Made by a program: the position numbers and the translations under genes
Source: a virus
IMG/VR virus record: IMGVR_UViG_3300032308_000947
Coordinates: 1-20,475 of that record
Direction: 5' to 3' (one strand)
DNA: 20,475 nt
The notes under the pieces: model-generated
The model's database searches: none
Told to the model about the DNA's origin: nothing
Seen by the model: the letters and a program-made list of their open reading frames with translations, nothing else
Part shown: positions 4,227 to 10,843 of the stretch, one piece after another
Position numbering within the stretch: position 1 is the first letter of the stretch
How the letters are laid out: each line of letters starts with the position of its first letter

Positions 4227-4477
4227 AGAAGAAGGGTTTTTCAAAGAGTGGTTATTCTAGATCTTCTTACGGAAAAAAATCCGTTCAGGAAAGGTTTAAG
4301 GTTAAAGATGTGAATGAAGAGGGTGGTCCTGACTTTATTTCTGCATGGGTTAATAACAACTTAAATAAGACACAGATGTCTAATGCTGAGGGAATTAAAG
4401 ATTTGATGCAAGGACCAAAATTAGGTTACAACGTGAAGAAGCGCAAAACATCTGAACCAAAGGAAGAAGATGAGTAA
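4223..4477 (+). CDS. Small charged protein, unknown
   Basis: An 84-residue ORF overlapping the previous stop (ATGA). The N-terminus is Lys/Ser/Gly/Tyr-rich (KKKGFSKSGYSRSSYGKK) and probably disordered; a helical centre (PDFISAWVNNNLNKTQMSNA) follows and the C-terminus is charged (KKRKTSEPKEEDE). The next gene starts 8 nt before its stop, and its purine-rich aaaggaagaag is the ribosome-binding site for that gene. No family is recognised. Confidence 0.6.
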   Translation: MKKKGFSKSGYSRSSYGKKSVQERFKVKDVNEEGGPDFISAWVNNNLNKTQMSNAEGIKDLMQGPKLGYNVKKRKTSEPKEEDE

Positions 4478-4859
4478 TCTATCTCCTAAACAATTTCATG
4501 TATTTCGTGGGTTACAAACTAATGCCTCTGGAATACAAAAAAATATACTGGGAGTTCATTGGACTGATAACCCAGATGTAGCAGAAGATTTTGGAAGTGG
4601 CAAGGGTCTAGGCGGCTATGCAAGTCATCGTGCATCTTATAAAGGTCCCTACTCGGTTATACACGCAACAACAACCAAAAATGCCGTAGAAAGAAACCCA
4701 AAGAAATTACAGACCTATGACATTGCTATGGATGCCGAAGAAGATGAGGTACCTTTAAAAGAAAACGTTAAAGTTAAAGTTCACTCAATAACAACCGTGC
4801 ATCCTAATAAACGTGAAAGAATGCGCCGATATAAAACTCCACGAGAGATGACTACATGA
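4470..4859 (+). CDS. R-S-E type ADP-ribosyltransferase-like protein 1
   Basis: A 129-residue protein with leader MSNLSPKQFH. The pattern matches arginine-ADP-ribosyltransferase-like domains: strand 1 VFRGL with Arg13; LGVHWTDNPDVAEDFG (residues 28-42) in place of the S-T-S strand, followed by the usual helix; SVIHATTTKNAV; and E91-D92-E93 in EEDEVPLKENVKVKVHSI, equivalent to the catalytic ExE loop and the final strand. The tail reads RRYKTPREM. It is shorter than typical 150-200 aa catalytic domains, but the three NAD/catalytic positions are in the right order. It shares this plan with the next two genes. Likely activity is transfer of ADP-ribose to a host protein; the target is unknown. Confidence 0.7.
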   Translation: MSNLSPKQFHVFRGLQTNASGIQKNILGVHWTDNPDVAEDFGSGKGLGGYASHRASYKGPYSVIHATTTKNAVERNPKKLQTYDIAMDAEEDEVPLKENVKVKVHSITTVHPNKRERMRRYKTPREMTT

Positions 4860-5209
4860 GTAACTTATCTCCTAAACAGTTTCATACTCTTTATCGTGGT
4901 TTAAGTTTTACTACAGATGTAAAAAAACCCCTCGGCATGCACTGGACAGATGATCCAGAGAGAGCCGTTGGCTTTGCAAGAAATCCTATTCGGCGAGGAC
5001 CTGGCGTTGTAATTGAAGGACAAGTGGCTAAGAGGAGTCGTGAGACTCGCTCTGATGTATTACAGAAAAATCAAGTATATGACGAGTATTGGGAGAATGA
5101 AGTTCCTGTTAAGAAGGGCAGCACCGTCCACGTAACTGCTGTTACTAAGTTAAGTGATAACCGAGATCGCACACGCACATACAATCCACCAAGGAAGTGG
5201 AAAGCATAA
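4856..5209 (+). CDS. R-S-E type ADP-ribosyltransferase-like protein 2
   Basis: A 117-residue paralogue of its neighbours, beginning with the identical leader MSNLSPKQFH. Motifs: LYRGL with Arg14, LGMHWTDDPERAVGFA (residues 26-41), VVIEGQVAKRS, then E80-N81-E82 in YWENEVPVKKGSTVHVTAV, and tail RTRTYNPPRKWKA. It is the most compact of the three. ATGA overlap with the preceding gene and a TAATG junction with the next. Catalytic residues Arg, Thr and ExE are all retained. Confidence 0.7.
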   Translation: MSNLSPKQFHTLYRGLSFTTDVKKPLGMHWTDDPERAVGFARNPIRRGPGVVIEGQVAKRSRETRSDVLQKNQVYDEYWENEVPVKKGSTVHVTAVTKLSDNRDRTRTYNPPRKWKA

Positions 5210-5673
5210 TGGCTGCTGAAGATAACTTATCTAAACAACAATGGAATCAGTCAGAATTAACTTTTCAAGTACACCGTGGTGTAACTCGTAAGTTTAAAAA
5301 AGATGCGCCACTTGGAATGCACTGGTCAGCAGATCCTCAAGTAGCAAGAAGATTTGCTGGATCCTTTGGCACCGTCATGCATGCCGAAGTTCCTATCAGT
5401 GCTGTAGAGATGAACACTCAAAAACTAAGTCGTGCTCAAGTTGATTTAAGAGATAAAGCAATGAAACGTCCAGAAAAAGAAGTTCCAGTTAAACCTGGCG
5501 CAAAAGTAAAAGTTACAGGTATCTCTGGACCTGAAGCAGATCCTGTTACAGGTAATTGGAATGGATTAAGAAGAAATGATTCTCCAACCTTCTCTTCTTG
5601 GGTAGCAGGTAAAGACAGCAAACGTCCTGCAAGAAAACGCACATATAAAAATCCTAAAGAGATGCAAGCATGA
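5209..5673 (+). CDS. R-S-E type ADP-ribosyltransferase-like protein 3
   Basis: A 154-residue paralogue. The ATG at 5209 is chosen over a GTG 12 nt upstream because it overlaps the previous TAA by one base and gives the leader MAAEDNLSKQQW, matching MAAEDNLS of the gene at 2537. Motifs: VHRGV with Arg23, LGMHWSADPQVARRFA (35-50), VMHAEVPISAVEMN, E89-K90-E91 in PEKEVPVKPGAKVKVTGI, and tail RTYKNPKEMQA. A roughly 30-residue insertion (residues 107-139) separates the ExE strand from the tail and is absent from the two shorter paralogues. The R, S and ExE residues are intact. Confidence 0.72.
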   Translation: MAAEDNLSKQQWNQSELTFQVHRGVTRKFKKDAPLGMHWSADPQVARRFAGSFGTVMHAEVPISAVEMNTQKLSRAQVDLRDKAMKRPEKEVPVKPGAKVKVTGISGPEADPVTGNWNGLRRNDSPTFSSWVAGKDSKRPARKRTYKNPKEMQA

Positions 5674-8308: not shown

Positions 8309-9049
8309 ATGGCAGACAAAGGCACAGCAGCAGCAATTATTGAGGTTGCAGAAAAAGAAGTTGGCACTATTGAAGGTCCAAAAGATAATGAGACTAAGTA
8401 TGGCAAATTTACTAAGGCAGACTTTTTACCTTGGTGTGGCTCATTTGTTATGTGGTGTGCAAATCAGGCAGGTGTAAAGGTTCCTAATACCGTTTCAACT
8501 GTGGCTGGCGCAACTGCGTTTAGAAAGATGGGCACCTGGGTAGATGCAAAGGATGCCTCTCCAAAACCAGGAGACATAGCCTATTTTGATTTTCCAGGAG
8601 ATGGTGTAGATAGAATTTCTCACGTAGGTATTGTTGTATCTAACAATGGAGATGGAACAGTTACCTGTATTGAAGGTAATACCGCAGGAAATGCAAAAGG
8701 TGATCAACGTAATGGTGGAGAAGTTTGTAAAAAGGTTCGTGGGTATATACCTAATAAGAAGAAGGTCATGGTATCTGTTGTTGGGTTTGGTCGGCCAAAC
8801 TATGTTGGCAACGAAGTTGAAGCAAGTGTCCCTGTCATAGAGGCACCACCTTTCCCAGGAACTGTTAAACCTGGAAGTAAAGGCAACAGCGTTAAGGTTG
8901 TTCAACGTGCTCTTGGATTAGTGGCTGATGGAGACTATGGTCCAGCCACAAAGAAGGCTGTAATCGCATTTCAAGATAACCATAAGATTTTGGACTCTAA
9001 CGGCATTGTTGGTCCTAAGACTTGGGCAGAATTGGTCAAATTCCTATAA
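8309..9049 (+). CDS. Endolysin: CHAP-type amidase/endopeptidase with peptidoglycan-binding domain
   Basis: A 246-residue two-domain lysin. Residues 1-155 form a CHAP (NlpC/P60-like) domain: PWCGSFVMWCANQAG with nucleophile Cys43, KPGDIAYFDF, ISHVGIVVS with His105, and TCIEGNT with Glu122 as the probable third residue. A Pro-rich linker (about 165-182) leads to a peptidoglycan-binding type 1 domain (about 183-246): KPGSKGNSVKVVQRALGL, DGDYGPATKKAVIAFQ, GIVGPKTWAEL. It cuts the cell wall at the end of infection. There is no signal peptide, so release depends on a holin. The start is fixed by a perfect Shine-Dalgarno, aaaggag, 4 nt before the ATG. A terminator-like hairpin follows. Confidence 0.93.
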   Translation: MADKGTAAAIIEVAEKEVGTIEGPKDNETKYGKFTKADFLPWCGSFVMWCANQAGVKVPNTVSTVAGATAFRKMGTWVDAKDASPKPGDIAYFDFPGDGVDRISHVGIVVSNNGDGTVTCIEGNTAGNAKGDQRNGGEVCKKVRGYIPNKKKVMVSVVGFGRPNYVGNEVEASVPVIEAPPFPGTVKPGSKGNSVKVVQRALGLVADGDYGPATKKAVIAFQDNHKILDSNGIVGPKTWAELVKFL

Positions 9050-9069
9050 ATCGGACAAATTACCCCTAT

Positions 9070-9105
9070 AGCCCTCTAAGAACCTTCTGGTATTCTTGGG
9101 GGGCT
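9070..9105 (+). terminator. Rho-independent terminator-like hairpin after the endolysin
   Basis: A 13-bp stem, agccctctaagaa (9070-9082) with ttcttggggggct (9093-9105), includes two G:U pairs and closes a 10-nt loop. The T tract that follows is short (ttcta), so termination may be partial. It separates the endolysin from the proteasome-like gene. Confidence 0.65.
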
Positions 9106-9126
9106 TTCTACTGAAGGGGGTGCCCA

Positions 9127-9672
9127 ATGACAACCATCATCGGAGTACAGTACGAAGACCGATGCATCTTGTTAGCAGACAATCAAGTAACAGATGAAAG
9201 TGGTCGTATCTATCGACATCCACAAATGGCAAAAATTAACGAACGTGGTGATTTTATAATTGCTGGTTCTGGAGAAGTATCTCCCTGTGATATTGCTCAA
9301 CACATTTGGAATCCGCCAAAATTAACCGCCAAAGATGCAAAAGATATCTATCACTTCATGATTGCAAAGGCAATGCCTTCCTTTAGGAAATGTCTAACTG
9401 AAAATGGATATGATTTTAACGAGGACCATGACAAATCTAAAGAAGGATTAAGGTTTCAATTTTTAATGGCTGTTGGTGGCGAGATCTTTGATATTGACCA
9501 AGATCTTTCGGTAATGAGAAGTATGGATGGCAAATATGCTGTTGGTTCTGGGGCTACCTATGCCTTGGGTGCGTTACATGCTGGAGTTAAACCAATGAAG
9601 GCTATGGAAATTGCTGCAAAACTTACAGCCTTTACTTCAGGTCCATACATTGAAAAGGAACAACTTAAGTAA
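9127..9672 (+). CDS. Proteasome beta / HslV-like Ntn-hydrolase
   Basis: A 181-residue protein resembling the proteasome-type N-terminal-nucleophile hydrolase fold. After Met, TTIIGVQYEDRCILLADNQVT would expose Thr2 as nucleophile once Met is removed; an Asp follows at the position of Asp17 (ADN), then a Lys in MAKINERGDFIIAGSGE near the position of Lys33 and the G-S-G loop. YAVGSGATYALGALHAG (about 139-155) matches the GSG loop and following helix of proteasome beta subunits, and the C-terminus (MEIAAKLTAFTSGPYIE) matches the next helix-strand. No ATPase partner is in the window. Roles could be phage-protein maturation or host protein degradation. A strong purine-rich site (gaaggggg) precedes the ATG. 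Confidence 0.82.
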   Translation: MTTIIGVQYEDRCILLADNQVTDESGRIYRHPQMAKINERGDFIIAGSGEVSPCDIAQHIWNPPKLTAKDAKDIYHFMIAKAMPSFRKCLTENGYDFNEDHDKSKEGLRFQFLMAVGGEIFDIDQDLSVMRSMDGKYAVGSGATYALGALHAGVKPMKAMEIAAKLTAFTSGPYIEKEQLK

Positions 9673-9880: not shown

Positions 9881-10843
9881 GTGATATCACTGAAAAAAAT
9901 CGCACTTGTCTGTGCTGCAGCATTGACAAGCACAGTTCTTTTAGTTCCATCAGCAAATGCAAATGTATTAACTCTAACCGTTAATGGTTCAGCAGCAACT
10001 GGAGGCACAGCAGCAACTGCTCCTATAGCACTTCCTGTTCCAGCAGATAACAGCGTTGATTTAGCAGATGCATTAAAGATTGCTGTAACAGGTTTAGATA
10101 CTGGTACAGTTGTTACTGCTGTTGCTACAAATGCAACATTAGTGCCAGCCGTAGCAACTTCTACTGCTCCAGTTACTGCATCCTCTGGAACTGCAAGTCT
10201 TTCTATTAGTACAGGAACTGGCACCACTGCTGATATTTTTGTTTATACAAAAACAACTGCAGTAGGATCTGTTGCTGTAACTATCCGTGGAAATACAACT
10301 ACATACTACGTGCAAGGAACTGCTGGTGCTCTTAATGCAATTGCACTAACCGCACCTGATTCAGCAGCGGCTGGAAGTACTCAATCATTAAAGGTAACTG
10401 GATACGATGTATTTGGAAACTTAAAAGGTGGAGCATCTATCAATGCTGTTGTAAGCAATGGGTCTACAGCCTCTGCAACTACTTTAACAACTGACACTGT
10501 TACAGCAACTAACGGAACTAAGACATTTGATGTTGTAATTCCAGCAGCAGGTCAAGTTACTGTAATTGTTTATGCAACTGTTGCTACTGCAATTGCTGGC
10601 ATGTCAACTCCTGTTGGATCAGTTAGCAAAAACATTGCTATTCGTGATCTTGCAGGTGAGTTAGCAGCAGTCCAAGCAGCACTTGCAGCAGAGAAGGTTG
10701 GTCGTGCCGCTGATAAAGCAGCCTATGACTCAGCCACCGCAACTGCTACTAAGCAGATTGCTGATCTAAATGCAGCAATTGCAAGTCTAAAAGCCTTGTA
10801 TAACAAGTTGGCTAAGAAGTACAAATTAAAGACTATTAAGTAG
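9881..10843 (+). CDS. Secreted Ala/Thr/Val-rich surface-type protein with coiled-coil C-terminus
   Basis: A 320-residue protein with a GTG start supported by ttaaggag. Residues 1-27 form a clear Sec signal peptide: KK at positions 5-6, a hydrophobic core ALVCAAALTSTVLLV, and an A-x-A site (ANA) before NVLTLTVNG. Residues 28-255 are beta-rich Ala/Thr/Val/Gly repeats resembling bacterial Ig-like domains. Residues 256-308 form a coiled coil (LAGELAAVQAALAAEKVGRA, later IADLNAAIASLKALYNKLAK), and the end is basic (KYKLKTIK). This plan is that of an actinobacterial cell-surface protein rather than a virion protein. It may be a host-derived moron altering the cell surface, or a fibre. No anchor or LPXTG motif is present. 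Confidence 0.75.
   Translation: MISLKKIALVCAAALTSTVLLVPSANANVLTLTVNGSAATGGTAATAPIALPVPADNSVDLADALKIAVTGLDTGTVVTAVATNATLVPAVATSTAPVTASSGTASLSISTGTGTTADIFVYTKTTAVGSVAVTIRGNTTTYYVQGTAGALNAIALTAPDSAAAGSTQSLKVTGYDVFGNLKGGASINAVVSNGSTASATTLTTDTVTATNGTKTFDVVIPAAGQVTVIVYATVATAIAGMSTPVGSVSKNIAIRDLAGELAAVQAALAAEKVGRAADKAAYDSATATATKQIADLNAAIASLKALYNKLAKKYKLKTIK

Follow-up and report, generated by a model that had tools for sequence, protein, structure and literature searches.

A phage-encoded Ntn hydrolase of the proteasome/HslV fold and its relatives in freshwater actinophages

The window, i.e. the whole stretch of 20,475 nucleotides analysed here (IMG/VR virus record IMGVR_UViG_3300032308_000947), carries a gene coding for an Ntn hydrolase directly downstream of an endolysin gene. 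The features of the locus are collected in Table 1. RNA folding of the gap between both genes (9060-9126) gave a z-score of -3.56, and a consensus stem across 18 relatives displayed compensatory changes at 4 of its 10 pairs. Most simply, this stem-loop is the endolysin terminator. The protein encoded downstream of the Ntn gene is widespread in related viral contigs, where its gene is sometimes found 3' of the Ntn gene. A fixed partnership between the Ntn hydrolase and this putatively secreted protein was rejected, the two genes being close in 31/31 near-identical loci but in only 6/49 more distant ones. Elsewhere in the window, three consecutive small ORFs share a common N-terminal motif, with a G.HW(T/S) stretch after an RG motif, and are tandem paralogues.

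Table 1. Features of the window around the Ntn hydrolase gene.
Feature	Coordinates	Strand	Remarks
Three small ORFs	4470-5673		
Endolysin	8309-9049	+	CHAP and peptidoglycan-binding domain; upstream neighbour of the Ntn gene; same position in 63 loci
Stem-loop, terminator-like	9070-9105	+	between endolysin and Ntn genes; conserved
Shine-Dalgarno-like AAGGGGG	9114-9120	+	6 nt 5' of the Ntn ATG; predicted from sequence
Ntn hydrolase, proteasome/HslV-like	9127-9672	+	ATG start, 181 aa, N-terminus MTTIIG
Downstream neighbour	9881-10843	+	signal-peptide-like N-terminus, coiled-coil-like C-terminus; frequent in this position, not exclusive

The initial annotation had described the product of the Ntn gene as a phage-encoded proteasome/HslV-like hydrolase, a proposal made dependent on the predicted fold. 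The protein scored barely above the cut-off of the Pfam Proteasome family PF00227 (22.5 bits for a cut-off of 22.4, E = 9.9e-5), and phrog_1040, annotated as 'peptidase HslV family', matched its residues 1-175 with an E-value of 1.5e-25. When a profile of 18 relatives was compared with the PDB, HslV (8.7e-16) and BPH (3e-14) were retrieved, with the mature Thr1 aligned on Thr1. The AF2 model was confident (pLDDT 90.8, pTM 0.88), values below 50 being confined to residues 102-106. Its closest solved structure was BPH (5ovt, Z = 18.0, 164 residues aligned), followed by the archaeal proteasome beta subunit, HslV (Z of about 16-17) and Anbu. On the basis of the PDB profile matches, the confident model and the BPH match, the product is an Ntn hydrolase with a proteasome/HslV fold, the match being far beyond chance. 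The phrog family, the profile matches and the modelled fold are all in agreement with the earlier description, AF2 giving a proteasome-type fold and not another one. That the enzyme is phage-encoded was also supported. Relatives occur in about 100 annotated phages, the nearest annotated ones being those of two cultured phages (OX376640 and OX376641, phages LanE43AprE7/F5, hereafter E7 and F5; 41%).

In mature numbering, to which one is added if the Met is counted, the catalytic set consists of Thr1, Asp17, Lys35, Gly48 and Ser140. The active sites of the phage Ntn set, Td-BPH and E. coli HslV were aligned. Thr1, Asp17, Lys35 and Gly48 were invariant across the aligned phage proteins and correspond to Thr1, Asp17, Lys37 and Gly50 of Td-BPH, which have been named as active-site residues (PMC5777263). 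Lys35 occupies the position of proteasome Lys33 and Gly48 is the oxyanion glycine. Ser140, located in the GSG loop, aligns with Ser139 and is a Ser in most of the phage set, a Thr or Asn in a few. At the position of proteasome Asp166, a Thr was found by hand alignment. The Thr, Asp17, Lys and GSG loop listed in the initial annotation are thus all present, the Lys being now placed at mature position 35 and not 33. The protein has no propeptide: a Thr comes immediately after the start Met, so that normal Met removal would free Thr1. The Thr-Thr pair encoded directly 3' of the start codon was found in all full-length close relatives, with ATG, GTG or TTG starts, and the free N-terminal Thr on which the proposal also hinged is therefore conserved in homologues. 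Within the window clade, dN/dS was about 0.04-0.11, except for the closest comparison (L002, 0.23), which points to a strong purifying selection on the Ntn gene.

The context of the Ntn gene was surveyed in 172 loci. The gene immediately follows the portal gene in 92 loci (E7-type, as in phage E7 itself, L083 5698-8036) and the endolysin gene in 63 (window-type). It was also found beside recombination genes in L063, L064 and L073 (families named by eye) and after a thioredoxin gene in L094. Among the E7-like portal loci with downstream DNA, the Ntn gene was next or next but one in 58/67 and absent in 9/67, and no second copy was found on those nine contigs. Where a related endolysin was followed by enough downstream DNA, the Ntn gene came next in 27 of the 58 loci. 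The most similar proteins from the portal and endolysin slots are 62-72% identical to each other. The earlier remark that the gene follows the lysis gene holds for the window and for the endolysin-slot loci, but this position is not diagnostic, since synteny in related phages also places the same clade after the portal and in other modules. Because the position of the gene varies and because it is cleanly absent from nine portal loci, we conclude that it is an accessory gene whose function is self-contained and that it behaves as cargo gained, lost and re-inserted by freshwater actinophages. Its benefit is therefore probably general and not tied to any set stage of lysis or of capsid assembly. 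A function dedicated to lysis was rejected in view of the presence of the same clade after the portal and elsewhere, an essential prohead protease is unlikely in view of the Ntn-less portal loci, and the enzyme is, as a whole, unlikely to be devoted to lysis or to the capsid.

WhiB, an Actinobacteria-specific gene, was detected in 12/21 kin records and in 0/3 non-actinophage records; one of the WhiB-carrying records encodes an 85% relative in the same gene order as the window, and no WhiB was found in the window itself. The cultured phages E7 and F5 infect Planktophila (PMC10202952). The WhiB genes of the kin records and the host of E7 and F5 make an actinobacterial host likely for the window virus, as judged from its kin and as the initial annotation had supposed. 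In three large actinophages, a WhiB-like gene stands close to the Ntn gene: it adjoins it in DSL-LC01 (L082 8001-8954) and lies within about 2 kb in L073 (5818-8549) and L094 (6701-8555). The last of these (CAINGU010000031.1) belongs to a 5.4 Mb bin labelled cyanobacterium and carries the only WhiB gene of this bin, together with thioredoxin, GroES-like and Ntn hydrolase genes. It is probably a misbinned large actinophage contig. The cyanobacterial host at which it hints was ruled out, WhiB being present on that contig alone of the bin, and no relatives of its protein were found in the viral scan.

The absence of a partner ATPase, claimed from the window, was also observed among its relatives. 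An HslU/ClpX-type AAA_2 domain scored above the cut-off in 0/21 phage records, most of which may be fragments, in which an unlinked ATPase could escape notice. Weak AAA matches were present in 13 records. Two of them were scanned further: that of E7 proved to be a DnaB-like helicase, that of G004 a CobS/MoxR-like ATPase. No phage-encoded ATPase partner was found in the 21 records.

On balance, we favour the view that the Ntn protein is a self-contained group I (HslV/BPH-like) peptidase of a freshwater actinophage, probably ring-forming, unfoldase-independent and carried as accessory cargo. Met removal would expose a free Thr1 on the subunit and, by analogy with BPH, the subunits would form a single or double ring in which Thr1 faces inward. 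Such a ring may need no dedicated unfoldase to cleave peptides or unfolded proteins, and the phage might benefit, for instance, from the turnover of peptides, from quality control of its proteins or those of the host, or from the elimination of a host factor during infection. BPH has been described as a double ring without known unfoldase, for which unfoldase-independence was proposed; once purified, it was inert on standard substrates, though epoxomicin bound its Thr1 (PMC5777263). As BPH was inert, catalysis by the window enzyme cannot be assumed. The Thr at the proteasome Asp166 position and the only mild acidity of the pore-position loop (see below) also speak against the favoured view. 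HslV relatives classically need an ATPase and no recognised unfoldase is encoded by these phages, two points that would suit an alternative peptidase serving a host AAA+ unfoldase (ClpX, ClpC or Mpa). We consider this decidedly unlikely, since the closest solved structures are those of BPH, in which the residues contacting HslU are lost and which retrieved no ATPase in pull-downs (PMC5777263). A host ATPase could all the same act as a partner of the phage enzyme.

The enzyme might also be aimed at a host system, either by joining or blocking the host proteasome, HslV or Clp complex or by degrading a defence or regulatory protein. Its accessory status and mobile spread are typical of host-takeover genes and the WhiB genes standing near it in DSL-LC01, L073 and L094 would fit this role, but an intact and conserved catalytic set is needless for a passive poison subunit and the PADLOC defence families gave 0 matches, so that this role appears rather unlikely. 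As prohead proteases usually sit just after the portal, the place of the Ntn gene as the first gene past the portal in E7-type phages could indicate a proteasome fold in the prohead-protease role, maturing heads or degrading the scaffold. No window-type or E7-type record matched the Peptidase_S78 family of prohead proteases, and the head gene lists that were read showed no evident one either; the head operon of window-type phages continues after the terminase with portal, scaffold-like and major head protein genes, no protease being apparent among them. Against such a role, which we hold to be very unlikely, stand the nine portal loci devoid of the gene, its place after the endolysin and away from the portal-scaffold-head protein genes in window-type phages, and its presence in recombination modules. 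To our knowledge, head or scaffold processing by a proteasome-fold enzyme has no precedent. Even less probable is a dual use in which the portal-slot enzyme of E7-type phages processes head or scaffold proteins and the same enzyme works late, around lysis, in window-type phages.

For phage-borne proteasome-like proteins in general, no tested function was found in the papers retrieved. Viruses of abundant lake Actinobacteria commonly carry the branch to which the window protein belongs, and the presence of a relative in two cultured phages (E7 and F5) of a cultured host makes the benefit of such a peptidase to the phage directly testable.

Among the known systems, the window protein stays below the cut-offs of the curated HslV equivalog (21.4 bits for 157.75) and of the curated bacterial 20S proteasome beta-subunit (12.6 bits for 191.9), its lack of a propeptide being a further difference from the latter. 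Membership of PPH was rejected: these proteins have about 140 residues and no helix H2, whereas the window protein has 181 residues and helices 51-60 and 74-92 are both present in its model. Anbu was rejected as well, since it possesses a long C-terminal coiled-coil helix whereas the window model ends in a strand (174-180). BPH (PDB 5ovs, 5ovt and 5ovu), a homo-tetradecameric double ring, is the top structural match and likewise has no known unfoldase; a longer loop at the pore position may be another common trait. This loop is short in HslV, long in BPH and of about 17 residues in the window protein, where 5 acidic and 3 basic residues make it mildly acidic, whereas that of BPH is strongly acidic. 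BPH differs further by an identity of only about 20-24% and by being encoded by a cellular gene of bacteria; its name refers to Betaproteobacteria.

The phrog_1040 proteins of phAPEC8, the Microbacterium phages WaterT and Pumpernickel and the Actinomycetia phage DSL-LC01 are likewise phage-encoded Ntn hydrolases with a Thr after the start Met and with Asp17 and the Lys kept, but they share 23-33% identity with the window protein and form a distinct clade, with a long C-terminal tail in phAPEC8. The enzymes of the Planktophila phages E7 and F5, also freshwater actinophages, are closer: the 41% identity extends over the full length and Thr1, Asp17, the Lys and the oxyanion Gly are kept, whereas the GSG-loop Ser is replaced by Thr and the gene is found behind the portal instead of the endolysin. 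A phage-borne proteasome-like protein is thus already known and the window enzyme is not the first: group I proteasome-like homologs, including the AAH and PPH groups, were described in phages by Fuchs, Alva and Lupas in 2021 (PMC8665760), and both groups resemble the window protein in being group I homologs disseminated by phages. In our tree, a 100/100 branch separates the window clade from AAH-like Streptomyces and Sinorhizobium proteins, which alone stood for AAH. On Sinorhizobium plasmids (L085 4001-4546, L086 3902-4447), a proteasome-like gene is flanked by nifQ on one side and by an iron-sulfur assembly gene on the other. The 2021 survey reported AAH in no Actinobacteria-specific phage (PMC8665760), a gap that the window branch, related to this group, partly fills. 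That group I relatives are indeed present in actinophages is shown by the Microbacterium phages, DSL-LC01, E7/F5 and the window clade.
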